Positions 11,632-19,677 of a stretch of 64,000 bases of DNA are shown here, piece by piece. Every line of letters starts with the position of its first letter. The first letter of the stretch is position 1. The stretch comes from Gemmatimonadaceae bacterium. GTDB taxonomy: Bacteria; Gemmatimonadota; Gemmatimonadetes; Gemmatimonadales; Gemmatimonadaceae. Made by a program: the position numbers and the translations under genes. The notes beneath the pieces are model-generated. The model was not told the origin of the DNA. It saw only the letters and a program-made list of their open reading frames with translations, and made no database searches. Where the stretch lies: NCBI GenBank assembly GCA_020846935.1, contig JADLCY010000008.1:248001-312000 (forward strand), read 5' to 3'.

Positions 11632-11948
11632 CAGCTCCTCTGGAAAGGGGGCCACCCGACCCCTCGAGTGCAACGTGCGGCACGGCTCGGATGCTGACCA
11701 GTCCCGAAAGCCCGGACAGACGCGGCCCGCGCCGGAATCGCTCTCGCGCAGCGACCGCTGATGACGTTGGCTGGATCAATCCCGGACCGATCCCAGGTGC
11801 CGGCTCCCGCGTCGCCACCGTGAAAGCAATGACGCGCTGAACCTCGCCCTACCGCATTGGCACCGACGACGGCCGTCAGGGCCGCACCGGCGTGGGCACT
11901 CCCGGGCGACCTCACGGGTATGTTTCGCCCGACACCAGCCCCTCCGTG
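11632..11948. other. 317-bp divergent intergenic region
   Basis: Lies between the PepSY gene (minus) and the M16 peptidase pair (plus). No gene, RNA or clear repeat is recognised; promoters for both directions must be here, but none is convincing by eye. Confidence 0.4.
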
Positions 11949-13310
11949 ATGCGACCCTCTCCCTCGCGAATCGTACTCGCGCTCGCCCTCGCCGCCCCGG
12001 CGCTCGGTGCGCAGGGCGTTCGGCTCAAGGTGCCGGCGACCGTCGACACGCTGCCCAATGGCCTCACGCTCATCGTGCACGAGGACCACTCCGTACCCAC
12101 GGTCTCGACCAACGTGTGGTACCTCGTCGGATCCGGCGACGAAAAGGTCGGGCGCACCGGCTTCGCGCACCTCTTCGAGCACGTGATGTTCATGGGGTCA
12201 GAGCACGCACCCTACCCGGAGTTCGACACACGACTCGAAGCCGCCGGCGCCAGCAACAACGGCACGACGAGCGAAGACCGCACGGCCTACTACGAGTGGG
12301 GGCCGAGCAATGCGATCCCGCTCATGTTGTGGCTCGAGGCGGATCGGCAGGGCTACCTGCTGCCGACGATGGACAAGGCCAAGCTCGACGCTCAGCGCGA
12401 CATCGTGAAGAACGAACGACGCCAGGGCGTCGAGAACCAGCCCTACGGCATCAGCGAGGACCTGATCGCGCCAGCGCTGTACCCGCCTGGACACCCGTAC
12501 TCCTGGCCGGTCATCGGCTCCATGGCCGATCTCTCCGCGGCGTCGCTCGATGACGTGAAGGACTTCTTCCGCACCTACTACGCGCCCAACAACGCGGTCA
12601 TTGTGGTCGCCGGCGCGGTCAGGACGGATTCCGTGCGCCGAATGGTGCGACGCATGTTCGGCGACATCCCCCGCGGCCCCGCCATCACTCGGGCAACGCC
12701 GGCGCCGTTCACGCTGCGCGACACGGTGCTGGTCGCCGAAGACCGCGTGCAGCTCCCGCGCGTGTACATGAACTGGCACACCGTCAAGGCGTTCGACCGC
12801 GACGACGCCGCGCTCGAGCTCGTGGCGTACCTGCTGACCGGTGCGCGCAACGCGCGACTCACGCAGGGGCTAGTCTACGAGCAGGAACTCGCCACCGGCG
12901 TCAACGCGTTCAACGGATCCAAGAAGCTCGACGGAGATTTCGCGCTCGTCGCCACGGCGCGACCGGGCAAGCACCTCAATGACGTGCGGCGCGCCATCGA
13001 CTCCACCATCGCCGTGCTCGCCAGCAACGGTCCAACGACGCGCGAACTCGAACAGGCGAGGAATGCCTTCGAGTCGCGGTTCCTCAACCGCCTGGAGTCC
13101 GTGAACTCCAAGTCGGAACAGCTGAACGCCTACTACTACTTCACGGGAAAGCCGGATGGGTTCCAGGACGAGCTCGATCGCGTACGCGCCGTCAGCGCCG
13201 ACGACATCAAACGCGTGGTGCAGCAATACCTCCGCGGCCCGCGCGTCATGCTGAGCATCGTGCCGATGGGCAAGAAGGATCTCGCCGCAACGCGGGAGAC
13301 CGTGCAATGA
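11949..13310 (+). CDS. M16 metallopeptidase, catalytic subunit, exported
   Basis: 453 aa with a signal peptide (MRPSPSRIVLALALAAPALGAQ), so periplasmic or surface-exposed. The inverted zinc motif is in GRTGFAHLFEHVMFMGSEHA (HxxEH: His, Glu, His). Further family marks are EADRQGYLLPTMDKAKLDAQRDIVKNERRQGVENQPYG and the second-half domain. The length is that of one pitrilysin half. It overlaps the next gene, a second M16 protein without the zinc site, by four bases (ATGA), so they likely form an active-inactive heterodimer. Confidence 0.92.
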   Translation: MRPSPSRIVLALALAAPALGAQGVRLKVPATVDTLPNGLTLIVHEDHSVPTVSTNVWYLVGSGDEKVGRTGFAHLFEHVMFMGSEHAPYPEFDTRLEAAGASNNGTTSEDRTAYYEWGPSNAIPLMLWLEADRQGYLLPTMDKAKLDAQRDIVKNERRQGVENQPYGISEDLIAPALYPPGHPYSWPVIGSMADLSAASLDDVKDFFRTYYAPNNAVIVVAGAVRTDSVRRMVRRMFGDIPRGPAITRATPAPFTLRDTVLVAEDRVQLPRVYMNWHTVKAFDRDDAALELVAYLLTGARNARLTQGLVYEQELATGVNAFNGSKKLDGDFALVATARPGKHLNDVRRAIDSTIAVLASNGPTTRELEQARNAFESRFLNRLESVNSKSEQLNAYYYFTGKPDGFQDELDRVRAVSADDIKRVVQQYLRGPRVMLSIVPMGKKDLAATRETVQ

Positions 13311-14782
13311 CCGCCGCATCGACGCGCCGCTCCGGTGGCAGCTTTCACTCCCGTATCGCGCCCTTCACCGCGCTGATGCTCCTTCCGGCCGCCCTCGGCG
13401 CTCAAACCCGGTACGATCCCGCCAAGCCGCCGCGCCTGGGAAAGCCGGCGCCGCTCGTCGTCCCGCCCGTGCATCGCTCGATCCTCGCGAACGGTGTCGC
13501 GCTCCGCATCGTCGAGCAGCGCGAACTCCCGCTGGTACAGATCACGGCCACGATCGATGGCGGCGCACGGCTCGACGGTCGCACGCCGGGGCTCGCGACG
13601 TTTGTCGCTGGCATGCTCGATGAAGGCGCCGGTTCGCGTGACGCCGCCGCGCTCCAGAGCGAACTCGCCTACCTGGGCGCTACGCTGGGCTCGGGTGCGT
13701 CGTGGGATGACTTCACCGTCTCCCTCAAGGTTCCCGTGCGGTCGCTGGGACCGGCGCTCGACCTCATGGCCGACGTGTTGCTGCGGCCGACGTTTGCCGC
13801 GACCGACGTGCGCCGGCAGCGCGACCTGCGCCTTGCCGCTCTCCTCCAGCAGCGCGATCAGCCTAACGCCGTCGCCGCGCTCGCCTTCAACCAGGTCGTC
13901 TATCCGGAGGGGCATCCGTATCACCAGCCGATCGGAGGCGACAGCGCGTCGACCGCCGCGCTCGACTCGACGACCGTGCGGGCGTTCTACGATCGCGCGT
14001 ATCGGCCGGAACGCACCACGTTCATCGTCGTGGGCGACCTCTCCGTGGCCGACGCGCGCAACGCGATCCAGTCGCGGTTTGGCTCATGGGTCGCGCGATC
14101 GACCGCGGCGCCGATCCCGGCCGTCACCAGGGCGCCGACGCCACTCACCGCAACCAGGGTCTACCTCGTCGACAAGCCCGATGCGGCGCAGTCGGTGATC
14201 CAGGTCGGCTGGCCTGGTGTGGACCGCCGATCACCGGACTACGCCGCGCTCATGGTCATGAACACCATGCTCGGTGGCTCGTTCACGTCGCGCCTCAACA
14301 TGAACCTTCGCGAGACGCACGGATATTCGTACGGCGCCCGCTCAGGCTTCACGTTTCGCAAGGCGCCGGGCCCCTTCGTGGCTTCGGCCGCGGTGCGCAC
14401 CGACGTCACCGACTCATCCCTGGTGGAGTTCTTCCGCGAACTGCGTCGCGTGAGGGACGAGCGTGCCACGGGAGATGACGTGGCGCGCGCCAGGAACTAC
14501 GTGGAACTGGGACTCCCCGGCTCGCTCGAAGGCACCACGCAGGTCGCCTCACAGGTCGCCGAGCTGCAGACCTTTGGACTCACGCTCGCCGAGTTGCCCC
14601 GTTTCGCTGCATTGGTTCGCGCGGTGACGCCTGCCGACGTCCAGCGCGTGGCGCGAACGTACCTCACGCCCGATCGCGCCACGGTGGTCGTGGTTGGTGA
14701 CCTCGCCAGAACCCGCGCCAGCATCGACGCATTGAAGCTTGGACCCACCGCGGTGCTCGACATCAGGTCCGTGATGCGGTAG
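13307..14782 (+). CDS. M16 family protein, non-catalytic subunit, exported
   Basis: 491 aa with a signal peptide ending near ALGAQ. It has the M16 fold, but the zinc motif position reads LATFVAGMLDEGAG instead of HxxEH, so it cannot bind zinc. It keeps the substrate-binding end of the family, LNMNLRETHGYSYGARSGF (the R...Y pair) and the GxxxSRLNxNLRE segment. This split of roles matches the alpha/beta arrangement of processing-peptidase-like heterodimers. It is translated from an ATGA overlap with the catalytic partner. Confidence 0.9.
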   Translation: MTAASTRRSGGSFHSRIAPFTALMLLPAALGAQTRYDPAKPPRLGKPAPLVVPPVHRSILANGVALRIVEQRELPLVQITATIDGGARLDGRTPGLATFVAGMLDEGAGSRDAAALQSELAYLGATLGSGASWDDFTVSLKVPVRSLGPALDLMADVLLRPTFAATDVRRQRDLRLAALLQQRDQPNAVAALAFNQVVYPEGHPYHQPIGGDSASTAALDSTTVRAFYDRAYRPERTTFIVVGDLSVADARNAIQSRFGSWVARSTAAPIPAVTRAPTPLTATRVYLVDKPDAAQSVIQVGWPGVDRRSPDYAALMVMNTMLGGSFTSRLNMNLRETHGYSYGARSGFTFRKAPGPFVASAAVRTDVTDSSLVEFFRELRRVRDERATGDDVARARNYVELGLPGSLEGTTQVASQVAELQTFGLTLAELPRFAALVRAVTPADVQRVARTYLTPDRATVVVVGDLARTRASIDALKLGPTAVLDIRSVMR

Positions 14783-14787
14783 ATCGC

Positions 14788-16299
14788 TCAGCGCTCCAGT
14801 CTGAACCCGGGATCGAGCCGCGGACGCTCACGCGCGTTGGCCACCAACCACCCGGTGGCGTACATCCACTGCGTCATGCGCGTGAGCTTGCCGATGTCGA
14901 TGCGCTGCCACTCGTCCCGCGGCGTGTGGTAGTCTGGATGCAGGTTGCTCGAGTACTCGACGGCGGGAATGTTGAGGCGCGCGTAGGGCAGGTGGTCGCT
15001 GCGGAAGTACCAGCCCTCCGGATGCGTCGGCCGATCCCAGGTGGAATCGAGCACGAACCGGCCCGTCAGCGCATTGGCACGCAGGGCCATCTCCACCAGG
15101 TCGGACGAGTTGCGATGCGGGGGCTGTACGCCGAGCAATGATGCGGTGTCGGGGCTGTTGCGCCCAATCATGTCGGCGTTGAGCACCGCGACGATCTGCT
15201 CGCGCGGTACCGTCGGATTGGCCGCGTGGTAGCGCGAGCCGAGGAGCCCGCGCTCCTCGGCGCCGTGCCAGACGAAGAGCGCCGACCGCTCGCCGGGTTG
15301 CTTGACGAACGCGCGCGCGATGGCCATCAGCGCCACGCTCACCGTGGCGTTGTCGTCAGCGCCGTTCCAGATCGAGTCACCGTCGACCGGAAAACGCACG
15401 CCGTCGTGGTCCTGATGTGCGCTGTACAGCACGTATTCGGCCGGCTTGGACGTACCGCGCACGCGGCCCACGATGTTCACCGACGGGTACACGAAGCTCT
15501 CGGTCGTTAGCTGCACCGTGAGCTGCGCGCCACTCCCGCGCACGCGCTCGAGCATGTCGCCGCGCACCAGCAGAACCGGCGGCGTCCGGCGCGGGCGCGT
15601 CTGGATGCCTGCGGAGTCCACCCCGTAGGTCCCGCGTGCCGCGTTGGCCGCGTAGAACGGCATGCCCTCCTCGGCGGTCGCGTCCGCGACGAGCACCACG
15701 GCGGCCGCGCCACGGCCAAGGAGGCGCGTGGACTGTGCCCGCACCGCCGCGATCGCGTATCGCCAGGAAGCGAGCGACATGTTGCGTCCAGGCGGGTTTG
15801 GCGGCGCAACGATGCGTGCGGCGGCGGCCTTGCCGGTGAGATCAACGCCCTGCAACTCGGCGTCGCTCCCCGTGCCGACATAGACCAGCGGGACCGAGAG
15901 CGACACGTCCGTCGGCGTGGAGACGATGACGTCCTTCCACATCGCGAGCGGGGCGCCCCCTACCTGAACCTCGCTGGCGTCCGACAGACGGATGCGGCGC
16001 ATGTTCCACCACTGGTAGTACGTGCCGTCCTTTCCCGCCGGCTCGAGCCCGATGGCACGGATCTGTTCGACCAGCCATCCGCTTGCACGCAACTCGTCCA
16101 GCGTGCCTGCCTCGCGCCCTCGCAGGTCGTCGCTGGCAAGAACGGCAATGTCACGACGCAGGTCTTCGCCCCGTATCGCATCGAGCGCCGGCAGCACTCC
16201 GTTGGATGCGGGCGCACCGGCAGCGGTGCTCGTCCTTCCCGCGCCGGACGCGCACCCCAGCGTGAGTGCCACGCAAAGAACCGATCCTGATCGCCGCAT
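14788..16299 (-). CDS. M28-family aminopeptidase lipoprotein
   Basis: 503 aa. A lipobox (ALTLGC) near residue 16 predicts lipid anchoring. A PA-like insert (about 130-260) precedes the zinc peptidase domain. Ligands in order: His in YSAHQDHDG, Asp in IWNGADDNATVS, the Glu-Glu pair in WHGAEERGLLGS, Asp in VLNADMIGR, and His in HPDYHTPRDEW. All are present, so it should be active on peptides outside the cytoplasm. ATG 16299 has AGGAG upstream. It converges on the M16 pair with five bases between stops. Confidence 0.93.
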   Translation of the reverse strand: MRRSGSVLCVALTLGCASGAGRTSTAAGAPASNGVLPALDAIRGEDLRRDIAVLASDDLRGREAGTLDELRASGWLVEQIRAIGLEPAGKDGTYYQWWNMRRIRLSDASEVQVGGAPLAMWKDVIVSTPTDVSLSVPLVYVGTGSDAELQGVDLTGKAAAARIVAPPNPPGRNMSLASWRYAIAAVRAQSTRLLGRGAAAVVLVADATAEEGMPFYAANAARGTYGVDSAGIQTRPRRTPPVLLVRGDMLERVRGSGAQLTVQLTTESFVYPSVNIVGRVRGTSKPAEYVLYSAHQDHDGVRFPVDGDSIWNGADDNATVSVALMAIARAFVKQPGERSALFVWHGAEERGLLGSRYHAANPTVPREQIVAVLNADMIGRNSPDTASLLGVQPPHRNSSDLVEMALRANALTGRFVLDSTWDRPTHPEGWYFRSDHLPYARLNIPAVEYSSNLHPDYHTPRDEWQRIDIGKLTRMTQWMYATGWLVANARERPRLDPGFRLER

Positions 16300-16345
16300 C
16301 AGATGCTCCTGGCATGGCACACCCCACACGCCCCGTCGTTAGGTG

Positions 16346-16741
16346 CTACGGTCGCGTCCCGACCTCCGCCGAGATGACGGACTTGATCCCGCCGCGCACG
16401 TTGAAGTCTCCGGTCACGCGCATCCAGCGCGGCTTCACGCACGCGGCCAGATCATCGAGGATCCGGTTCACCACGCGCTCATAGAAGATCCCGTCGTTGC
16501 GGAAGCTCCAGAAGTAGAGCTTGAGACTCTTGAGCTCGACGCACGCCTGGTCCGGGATATAGGTCACACCGATCGTCGCGAAGTCCGGGGCGCCGCCCTT
16601 GAGGAGCTCGAGTTCGTCAGCATCGGTTTCTATACCGCCGAGCGGACACAGCGACGTGAACTCCGGGCAGGTCATGTGGACCTCGTAGTTCCGCCCGGGA
16701 TAAGGATTTGGGAAGGTTTCGAGGAGTTCTGGCCTTGGCAT
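16346..16741 (-). CDS. queF: NADPH-dependent preQ0 reductase QueF
   Basis: 131 aa from ATG 16741. It reduces 7-cyano-7-deazaguanine to preQ1 in queuosine synthesis. Diagnostic parts are LLETFPNPYPGRNYEV, the catalytic Cys in CPEFTSLCP, PDFATIGVTYIPD (catalytic Asp), the NADPH motif CVELKSLKLYFWSFRNDGIF, and VTGDFNVRGGI. Between LCPLGG and PDFATI there is an unusual insert of about 13 residues (around IETDADELELLKG) compared with the short turn in B. subtilis QueF. The frame continues upstream without a better start, but homology begins here. Confidence 0.93.
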   Translation of the reverse strand: MPRPELLETFPNPYPGRNYEVHMTCPEFTSLCPLGGIETDADELELLKGGAPDFATIGVTYIPDQACVELKSLKLYFWSFRNDGIFYERVVNRILDDLAACVKPRWMRVTGDFNVRGGIKSVISAEVGTRP

Positions 16742-17010: not shown

Positions 17011-17919
17011 CTACTCTCCGCGCAACTCCCGCGATCGTTCCTCGAGCAGGCGACGCTCGCCGCTCGTGAGGCTCTCGAGCCCGTGCTGCGAGATCTTGTC
17101 GAGCACGGAGTTGAGGTCGAGTTCGCGCGGACCCGAGGGCTTGGGCTGCGACATCGGCGGCTCCGGCGACGGCCGCCGCGCCATCGACGCGTTGCTGCGC
17201 GCCACGATCTCGTCGATACCACCGCGCTGCTCGCGCGCGCCACGCGTCGAACGCGGAATCGCCCGCGGGGATTCGTCGGGCTGGTCGGGCACCGAAGACA
17301 CCCGCTGCCGAAGCCGACCAAGGCTCGCGCCGGTCCCGGACGAGCGCAGATAGAGCCACGCCGCCGCGATGCCGCCCAGGTGCGCGGCGTATGCCACGCC
17401 GCTGCCTCCGCCACCCGAGGCCATGCCCGCAATCAGGTTGATGCCCACGAGCAGCGCGACCATCCACTTCACCTTGAGCGGAATCACGCCAAAGAGCAGA
17501 ACCTCGTCATCGGGCCACTGCATCGCGTAGGCGAGCGTGACACCAAATACCGCCGCTGACGCACCAACCAGCAACGCCTCACGGGCAAAGATCAGGTGAA
17601 ACAGCCACCCACCGAGCCCTGAGACCAGGTAGAACTTGGCAAACTCTCCGGTCGACCAGGAGCGCTCGACCCGAGGCCCAAAGACGTAGAGCGTGTACAT
17701 GTTCAGGGCGAGGTGCCAGAACCCCGCGTGCACGAACATGTAGGTGCCGATCGTCCACCACGATTGCGAGAAATCGCCCGCCTGAAACCCGAGCGCACCC
17801 AACATGTTGGGCGCGCCCACCACCGTGAGCTGCAGGAAGTAGATCGCGACGTTGATCGCGATCAACCACTGCACTCCTCGGGTCAGGCTCGGGCGGTCGC
17901 TCTCGTCGGTAAAGGGCAC
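17011..17919 (-). CDS. Rhomboid-family intramembrane serine protease
   Basis: 302 aa with six hydrophobic helices in the first 200 residues. The catalytic Ser is in LVGASAAVFGVTLAYA (GxSx) and the His in YAAHLGGIAAAWLYL. The oxyanion region HLALNMYTLYVFGPRVE has the conserved HxxxN. A low-complexity linker follows, then a conserved C-terminal motif DKISQHGLESLTSGERRLLEE, known at the end of many rhomboids in Bacteroidota-like groups. It should cleave single-pass membrane proteins; the substrate is unknown. Confidence 0.93.
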   Translation of the reverse strand: MPFTDESDRPSLTRGVQWLIAINVAIYFLQLTVVGAPNMLGALGFQAGDFSQSWWTIGTYMFVHAGFWHLALNMYTLYVFGPRVERSWSTGEFAKFYLVSGLGGWLFHLIFAREALLVGASAAVFGVTLAYAMQWPDDEVLLFGVIPLKVKWMVALLVGINLIAGMASGGGGSGVAYAAHLGGIAAAWLYLRSSGTGASLGRLRQRVSSVPDQPDESPRAIPRSTRGAREQRGGIDEIVARSNASMARRPSPEPPMSQPKPSGPRELDLNSVLDKISQHGLESLTSGERRLLEERSRELRGE

Positions 17920-18001: not shown

Positions 18002-18661
18002 TCACCGAACGGTCGCGGGCCCTGACAGACGGTTGGCCACCCGAACGTCCGGGTGACGCGCCATCGCGTGCTCCATGAGCACGCTCCACCGGCGGTCCAG
18101 CAGGTGCTTCTCCGTCGACGGACCGGGGTGGATCACCACCGACGCCTGGGCGCTGGCAGCGTGCGACTGCTCGACGATCTGCAAATATTCGGCGTCACTG
18201 GTCTCGTCAGTCCCCGCGATCACCACGGCGTGCGCCACGCCCACGTGCGCGGCCGCCCGAACGGTTTCCATGGCGCGCTCGAGCGTGGGTGCCAGAACCG
18301 GGGGATCTACGGTCACCTGAACGAGTTGTATGTACTCGTGGAGCACCGCGATCGCTTCGGGACGCTGACCATCCGTGTCGACCATCACGGGCACCTTTCC
18401 GGCCACCTGTCGCAAGGCGGCCAACAGGTAGTCCGAGTTACCCAGGGCGTCCCGACCCGCGACGCAGATCGAGTGAATCACCGAGCGCTCGAGTCCGCGC
18501 ACCAATTCCCTGGCCAGCGCATCCGCTGAATACATCGTGGCGGTCTCGGCCGGCCCGGCAAAGCGCACGAATAACTGCCGCCGACCGGACCAGAGTCCGT
18601 GGCGCTGGATCCCCAGTGGAACCCCGGCCAGAGCCGCCGTGAGCATCGGCGTTGATCCCAT
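18002..18661 (-). CDS. QueE-like protein lacking the radical-SAM cysteines
   Basis: 219 aa. The overall plan follows 7-carboxy-7-deazaguanine synthase (QueE): GIQRHGLWSGRRQLFVRFAG at the N-terminus (QueE: SIQGEGxxxGxxxxFxRLxG), VMVDTDGQRPEAIAVL, and a C-terminal IHPG...HPDVRVANRLSG like QueE's HPDVRVxPQxH. The CX3CX2C cluster that should follow RFAG is replaced by PAETATMYS, and the GGEPL motif by AGRDALG. It therefore cannot bind a radical-SAM [4Fe-4S] cluster. It sits near queF and next to ddl. GAGGAG precedes ATG 18661. The present function is unknown. Confidence 0.6.
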   Translation of the reverse strand: MGSTPMLTAALAGVPLGIQRHGLWSGRRQLFVRFAGPAETATMYSADALARELVRGLERSVIHSICVAGRDALGNSDYLLAALRQVAGKVPVMVDTDGQRPEAIAVLHEYIQLVQVTVDPPVLAPTLERAMETVRAAAHVGVAHAVVIAGTDETSDAEYLQIVEQSHAASAQASVVIHPGPSTEKHLLDRRWSVLMEHAMARHPDVRVANRLSGPATVR

Positions 18662-18678: not shown

Positions 18679-19677
18679 TCAGGTCAGGGCCAGCGTCACA
18701 ATACGTTCGCACAACTCGGGAAACGAGATCCCGGCCGCCGCGGCCGCCTGCGGCACCAGGCTCAATTGCGTCATCCCTGGCAGCGTGTTGGCCTCGAGGC
18801 AATAGAACTCTCCGTCGGGGCCCAGTCGGAAATCGATGCGAGCACAGCCACGGAGCTTGAGGATCCGGAACGCCTTGAGCGCCAGGGCCTGGACCCTCGC
18901 CGTCTCCGCTTCGGTCAGCGCCGCAGGAAAGATCTCGCGCGCCATCCCGGGCGTGTACTTGCACTCGTAGTCGTAGAGCTCGTGTTCCGGCACGATCTCC
19001 CCGACCGGAAGGGCCACGTCGCCCAGCACCGCGACGGTCAGCTCCCGGCCAGGAATGAACTGTTCGATCATCACCTCGTCATCGAACGTGCCAGCCAGCG
19101 TGATCGCTGGCTGAAGCTCGTCCGCCGATTTCACGAGCGAGAGACCGACCGTCGACCCCTGCTTCGACGGCTTGACGATGCAGGGGAAGCCGAGCGTCGC
19201 GGCCACTGTTGCTGTGTCGGCTGGCGCCATGATCCAGTTCGCCGTTGGCACGCCGGCACGTCGGAACAGGTGCTTTGACAGGTCCTTGTCCATCGCGAGC
19301 GCGCTCGCCAGGTGCCCGCTGCCGGTGTAGGGGACGCCGGTGAGGTCGAGCAGCGCCTGGATCGTGCCGTCCTCTCCACGTCCCCCGTGCAACGCCAGCA
19401 TCACCACGTCGGCGCTCGGCAGTTCCGACATGGCCTGCGGCAGCGAACGATCGAGTCGTGCCAGCGCCTGCGTATCCGGCGGGACGGTGCGCATGACGCC
19501 ACCGGCGAGCATCGCGGACTGATCGGCGGCACTCAACACGCCGGTGGCCGTATCGATCGCCGTCACCACATGCCCACGTGCGCGCAGCGCTTCGGCCATG
19601 CGAAGGCCGGACGCGAGGGACACATCGCGTTCACTCGACGTGCCCCCCATGAGGAGCGTGATCCGCAGGGAGGTCAT
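18679..19677 (-). CDS. ddl: D-alanine--D-alanine ligase
   Basis: 332-aa ATP-grasp enzyme that joins two D-alanines for peptidoglycan. Motifs: LLMGGTSSERDVSLASG at the start, LALHGGRGEDGTIQALLDLTGVPYTGSG, FPCIVKPSKQGSTVGLSLV, CARIDFRLGPDGEFYCLEANTLPGMT. All magnesium and ATP ligands appear intact and the length is normal. ATG 19677 is chosen because homology starts there. It is followed 17 bases later by the QueE-like gene. Confidence 0.96.
   Translation of the reverse strand: MTSLRITLLMGGTSSERDVSLASGLRMAEALRARGHVVTAIDTATGVLSAADQSAMLAGGVMRTVPPDTQALARLDRSLPQAMSELPSADVVMLALHGGRGEDGTIQALLDLTGVPYTGSGHLASALAMDKDLSKHLFRRAGVPTANWIMAPADTATVAATLGFPCIVKPSKQGSTVGLSLVKSADELQPAITLAGTFDDEVMIEQFIPGRELTVAVLGDVALPVGEIVPEHELYDYECKYTPGMAREIFPAALTEAETARVQALALKAFRILKLRGCARIDFRLGPDGEFYCLEANTLPGMTQLSLVPQAAAAAGISFPELCERIVTLALT

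Follow-up and report, generated by a model that had tools for sequence, protein, structure and literature searches.

A QueE-like protein without the radical-SAM cluster loop, encoded beside ddl in Gemmatimonadaceae

The radical-SAM enzymes, which have their cluster as defining feature, make up a very large superfamily. The substrate of one of them, QueE, is a pterin. In QueE, Arg27 holds the substrate carboxylate (PMC5347944), and the R27A change in E. coli QueE abolishes queuosine (PMC11142719). The E. coli enzyme is also a moonlighting division inhibitor acting on FtsZ, a role of the QueE scaffold that needs no catalysis, but it keeps both its cluster and its catalysis, and the region responsible for moonlighting is confined to enterobacterial QueE (PMC11142719). 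Here we describe a relative of QueE from Gemmatimonadaceae, which is a variant of this known scaffold and not a new kind of system. It has in common with QueE, the 7-carboxy-7-deazaguanine synthase (B. subtilis 5tgs/5th5; 4njg, 6nhl), a barrel predicted over about 200 residues, an N-terminal Q..G...G segment, an arginine (Arg33) in the place of the substrate-binding Arg27, and the order of the motifs down to the C-terminus. It differs in having no CX3CX2C loop, in its altered GGEP, ETNG and QTHK motifs, in the other invariant residues of its pocket, and in being encoded with ddl. A keyword search of the open-access literature returned no account of a QueE lineage that lacks the cluster.

The gene lies in a stretch of 64,000 nucleotides, hereafter the window. 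It is an open reading frame of 219 codons on the minus strand, from an ATG start to a TGA stop, with a GC3 of 0.80 and a codon-position GC pattern matching that of the adjoining genes. The order on the minus strand is holA, a SPOR-domain gene, mutS, a small TonB-like gene, ddl, the QueE-like gene, a rhomboid gene and queF, where neighbour names were assigned by reading their sequences. The genes needed below are the following:

18002..18661, minus strand: cluster-free QueE-like protein (P0001, 219 aa), from the open reading frame and family comparison
18679..19677, minus strand: ddl (D-Ala-D-Ala ligase), the co-oriented partner upstream, with a gap of 17 bp in the window
17011..17919, minus strand: rhomboid-family membrane protease, directly downstream of the QueE-like gene
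16346..16741, minus strand: queF (preQ0 reductase), two genes downstream, with the rhomboid gene between

Further downstream of queF, at 11892-16329 of the window, two adjoining genes for M16-type peptidases on the plus strand face a gene for an M28-type peptidase.

The initial annotation took this gene for a QueE paralogue on the basis of short strings in its translation. The reading frame is real, the strings are present, and GIQRHGLWSG...FVRFAG, VMVDTDG and HPDVRVANRL align, in order, with QueE TLQGEGVHAGRPAVFCRFSG, VAIETNG and HPRWRLSLQT. The family was first defined on 30 relatives, and residue conservation was scored on 57 non-redundant members. Compared with a pooled QueE profile, the family profile scored 46.6-47.5 (probability 89-90%, E ~2e-6, z ~12 over shuffled nulls); 60 column-shuffled nulls gave a mean of 14.5 (SD 2.7, maximum 22.3), and the reversed profile 13.4. 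Because the score exceeds every shuffled null, the correspondence of the three strings with QueE is beyond chance, and the assignment as a paralogue stands. When the 15 radical-SAM proteins of the genome were compared singly with the family profile, its own QueE scored 31.8 and the others at most 22.4: QueE is the only one of the 15 that resembles the family.

The relationship is distant, and its detection depended on the method. A clear match required the pooled QueE types, the family profile matching the long-type QueE alone weakly. Single-sequence BLASTP of the window protein against the genome's own QueE was marginal (E 0.005, poor alignment), and phmmer and hmmsearch against the PDB found no QueE. 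Pfam Radical_SAM (PF04055) matched the window protein with 21.5 bits (E 2.8e-4), below the gathering cut-off of 29.5, and sub-threshold matches (E below 1) were obtained for 15 of 30 family members, the best at E 2.9e-7. In a protein tree the family is a single clade whose stem measures 3.5 changes per site; long branches meet there, so that the tree leaves it unplaced among QueE types.

Comparison of a predicted structure with QueE had been proposed as a check of the initial annotation, and QueE came first for two models. Two confident AlphaFold models, one for the window protein (pLDDT 89.6, pTM 0.87) and one for a second member that shares 41% identity with it (pLDDT 89.3), both had B. subtilis QueE as best structural match, with Z 17.1 and an rmsd of 3.1-3.2 over 199-201 residues for the former, and Z 17.9 and an rmsd of 3.1 over 199 residues for the latter. 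Foldseek also ranked B. subtilis QueE at the top (E 8e-7). Pyruvate formate-lyase activase, a close second (Z 15.4-16.8), NifB and viperin come after QueE in the ranking, and therefore the fold is that of a short radical-SAM barrel. The activating enzyme (3cb8), at Z 15.6-16.8 the nearest fold once B. subtilis QueE is set apart, differs in bearing the cluster, and the motif strings of the QueE-like protein follow QueE instead. As modelled, the protein thus keeps the (beta/alpha)6 barrel of QueE.

We then examined what is left of the QueE motifs along this predicted barrel. Their counterparts in the window are:

18551..18580, minus strand: beta-1, residues 28-37 (RQLFVRFAGP region), including R28 and Q29 together with Arg33, kept from QueE
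18536..18553, minus strand: short loop in place of the CX3CX2C cluster loop, residues 37-42 (PAETAT), with A38, E39, T40 and A41 invariant
18437..18460, minus strand: altered GGEPL SAM motif at the beta-2 end, residues 68-75 (AGRDALGN), with R70 and D71 invariant
18359..18379, minus strand: equivalent of the QueE motif ETNG, beta-3 end, residues 95-101 (DTDGQRP), with D95, D97 and R100 invariant
18125..18130, minus strand: equivalent of the QueE motif QP, beta-6 end, residues 178-179 (HP)

None of the 57 non-redundant members has a cysteine at the cluster-loop positions. In the profile alignment with QueE, a gap spans the entire CX3CX2C segment; from the glycine after strand 1, B. subtilis QueE has about 24 residues before MTAEEI, and the QueE-like protein 6 (PAETAT) before MYSADAL. 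Since the gap covers the whole segment and the loop is that much shorter, the [4Fe-4S] cluster loop appears, on alignment, to have been deleted, rather than merely stripped of its cysteines. The initial annotation had both CX3CX2C and GGEPL gone. The former is indeed lost, and with no loop cysteine in any of the 57 members and the cluster segment missing from the alignment, the claim that the protein cannot do the radical-SAM step is supported. GGEPL, on the other hand, is still recognisable, altered to (G)GRDPL (GRDPLGN) in most members and to AGRDAL in the window copy. The C-terminal QTHK motif of QueE is not kept, RLPPP or a similar string standing in its place, with Q replaced by R.

Other residues of the barrel are retained. 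Arg33 is the counterpart of QueE Arg26/27 in a gap-free alignment, and is Arg in 54 of the 57 members and Lys in the remaining 3. Invariant polar residues (E39, T40, R70, D71, D95, D97, R100 and H178) lie at the strand ends, on the active side of the barrel. Half of the 16 invariant polar barrel residues in the 57 members sit in beta-to-alpha loops, residues being assigned to the pocket from predicted secondary structure, and these loops are conserved above chance (permutation p 0.011), the opposite loops not. Such conservation at the barrel mouth could instead serve folding or a protein interface.

On balance, and with some reserve, we favour a cluster-free descendant of QueE that kept the barrel and rebuilt the pocket: either an enzyme of non-radical chemistry or a regulator that responds to a ligand, in both cases co-produced with Ddl. 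Its fold, QueE ancestry, missing cluster loop, selection, operon-like position and conserved polar barrel-mouth residues are all computed. A QueE ancestor would have lost the entire cluster loop, the barrel staying in place, and Arg33, handed down from QueE, would form a rebuilt pocket together with the eight invariant strand-end residues listed above. The ligand of this pocket would be small and carboxylate- or phosphate-bearing, possibly a pterin or a deazapurine. Without a cluster there would be no reductive SAM cleavage, which leaves a non-radical enzyme or a ligand-responsive regulator, presumably produced together with Ddl; the QueE step would be supplied by the true QueE beside queC, and not by this protein. 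A pterin or deazapurine is our first guess because QueE itself uses a pterin and because residues 45-140 (window 18242-18529) have a weak similarity to pterin/folate barrels (MtrH, E 0.001; MetH folate domain, E 0.04-0.11). The MtrH match, at 18.7 bits under the curated cut-off of 22.8, was found for one member only, and such a ligand is put forward from sequence as a lead only. More specifically, excision of the cluster loop may have made the QueE barrel a new non-radical enzyme, with a carboxylate ligand and a place in cell-wall or pterin/deazapurine metabolism, a proposal that we make tentatively and hold to be rather doubtful.

A true queE, for which the initial annotation suggested a search elsewhere in the genome, was found on another contig than the window, adjoining queC (G000:C15:216986-217612). 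It differs from the QueE-like gene in encoding a long CX14CX2C loop and all QueE motifs, and its product is 71-79% identical across relatives, versus about 50% for most members of the QueE-like family. Besides queE, the queC, tgt, queF and queD-family genes are all present in the genome. Of the PTPS/QueD-family genes, one is near queC-queE (G000:C15:220585-220929) and one apart (G000:C11:523631-524026). We also observed that at least two QueE types coexist in the phylum, the long CX14CX2C type in the window genome (L045, L046) and the classic CX3CX2C type in other families of the class (L124-L140). Replacement of QueE by the QueE-like protein was considered and rejected, since 46 of the 48 genomes that carry the gene also have a true queE; the two others, G047 and G258, are drafts.

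Catalytically dead paralogues can act as partners that adjust an enzyme's activity or stability. A pseudoenzyme pairing with the true QueE, or with another protein of the pathway, would agree with this joint occurrence and with QueE being the closest relative in the genome, but queE is found in 103 of 108 family genomes regardless, so that co-occurrence is uninformative. Moreover, conservation falls at the barrel mouth, with no evident surface patch, the gene is encoded with ddl and not with queC-queE, and the two drafts possess it without a queE match. We regard such a partnership as unlikely.

Gemmatimonadaceae are soil and freshwater bacteria. The QueE-like gene is present in 48 of their 108 genomes, and it is dispensable, since it is absent from the other 60, small genomes among them. 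A search of the phylum for a conserved cysteine-less clade had been suggested; the clade was found within this family, and phylum samples outside it contained no member. In a scan of the genome collection, the only records with a member had Gemmatimonadaceae, Gemmatimonadetes or Gemmatimonas in their titles, apart from one isolate titled 'bacterium', and none was found in the viral contigs and plasmids scanned; contig scans used two peptide patterns, which distant relatives may escape. Matches in G025:C5 and G055 look like chance, their frames resembling a repeat protein and a kinase, respectively.

Gene order is fixed: in 20 of 20 contexts examined, the QueE-like gene lies between ddl and the rhomboid gene, with queF next and its orientation matching that of ddl, and in about half of the members the two reading frames of ddl and the QueE-like gene share 4 bp. 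This agrees with the earlier designation of ddl as operon partner. In relatives without the gene, ddl is followed directly by the rhomboid gene, often with queF after it. Closeness to queF, taken at first as a hint, is therefore weaker than was thought, and we set it aside as a sign of a queuosine role. In one locus (L144, G056) queF directly follows ddl, the QueE-like and rhomboid genes being both absent. The distribution would be explained most simply if the gene had entered an older ddl-rhomboid-queF array once, within a subclade, with losses afterwards.

The ddl gene adjoins, and an envelope role for the protein is thus worth testing. The scaffold could have been retained for non-catalytic control of the septum or of peptidoglycan, as a regulator of the cell envelope or of division: the ddl neighbourhood is strict, and E. 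coli QueE R27A, dead for queuosine, still blocks division (PMC11142719). The effect in E. coli, however, needs the region around E45-E51, and QueE of B. subtilis and P. aeruginosa has no such effect (PMC11142719). Adjacency to ddl may merely reflect a convenient insertion point, and the conserved barrel mouth suggests a ligand, all of which makes this role improbable.

It is still harder to believe in an unrelated TIM-barrel protein, of the folate-/pterin-binding MetH/MtrH type, that happens to resemble QueE. The weak MtrH and MetH matches cited above, around PVMVDT...PEA, point that way, but the top structural ranks of the two models go to QueE and other radical-SAM proteins, and the match to the QueE profile is full-length and keeps the motif order throughout.

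Decay in relatives was looked for, and purifying selection was found instead, with dN/dS values of 0.07-0.33 across 15 pairs of family members and 37 positions at least 97% identical among the 57 members. Frames were open in all members examined save one. That copy (L221 4001-4220; G294:C106:51568-51780) has lost about 145 internal codons in frame, so that some 46 residues remain at the N-terminus and some 27 at the C-terminus; it directly precedes the rhomboid gene, and natural loss and an assembly fault are both possible. A decaying, functionless QueE pseudogene, to which this copy and the absence of the gene from several relatives might point, is contradicted by the selection data, by the frames open elsewhere and by the fixed gene order, and is hardly credible.

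We conclude that, in this lineage, the QueE scaffold has lost radical chemistry and the protein has probably been put to a new use. A conserved and selected cluster-free lineage with a polar barrel mouth is a clear case of the use of such a barrel without the radical step, and annotation of these genes as 'QueE-like' or 'radical SAM' would mislead. Should the protein be a new non-radical enzyme, a radical-SAM scaffold would have exchanged its chemistry entirely.
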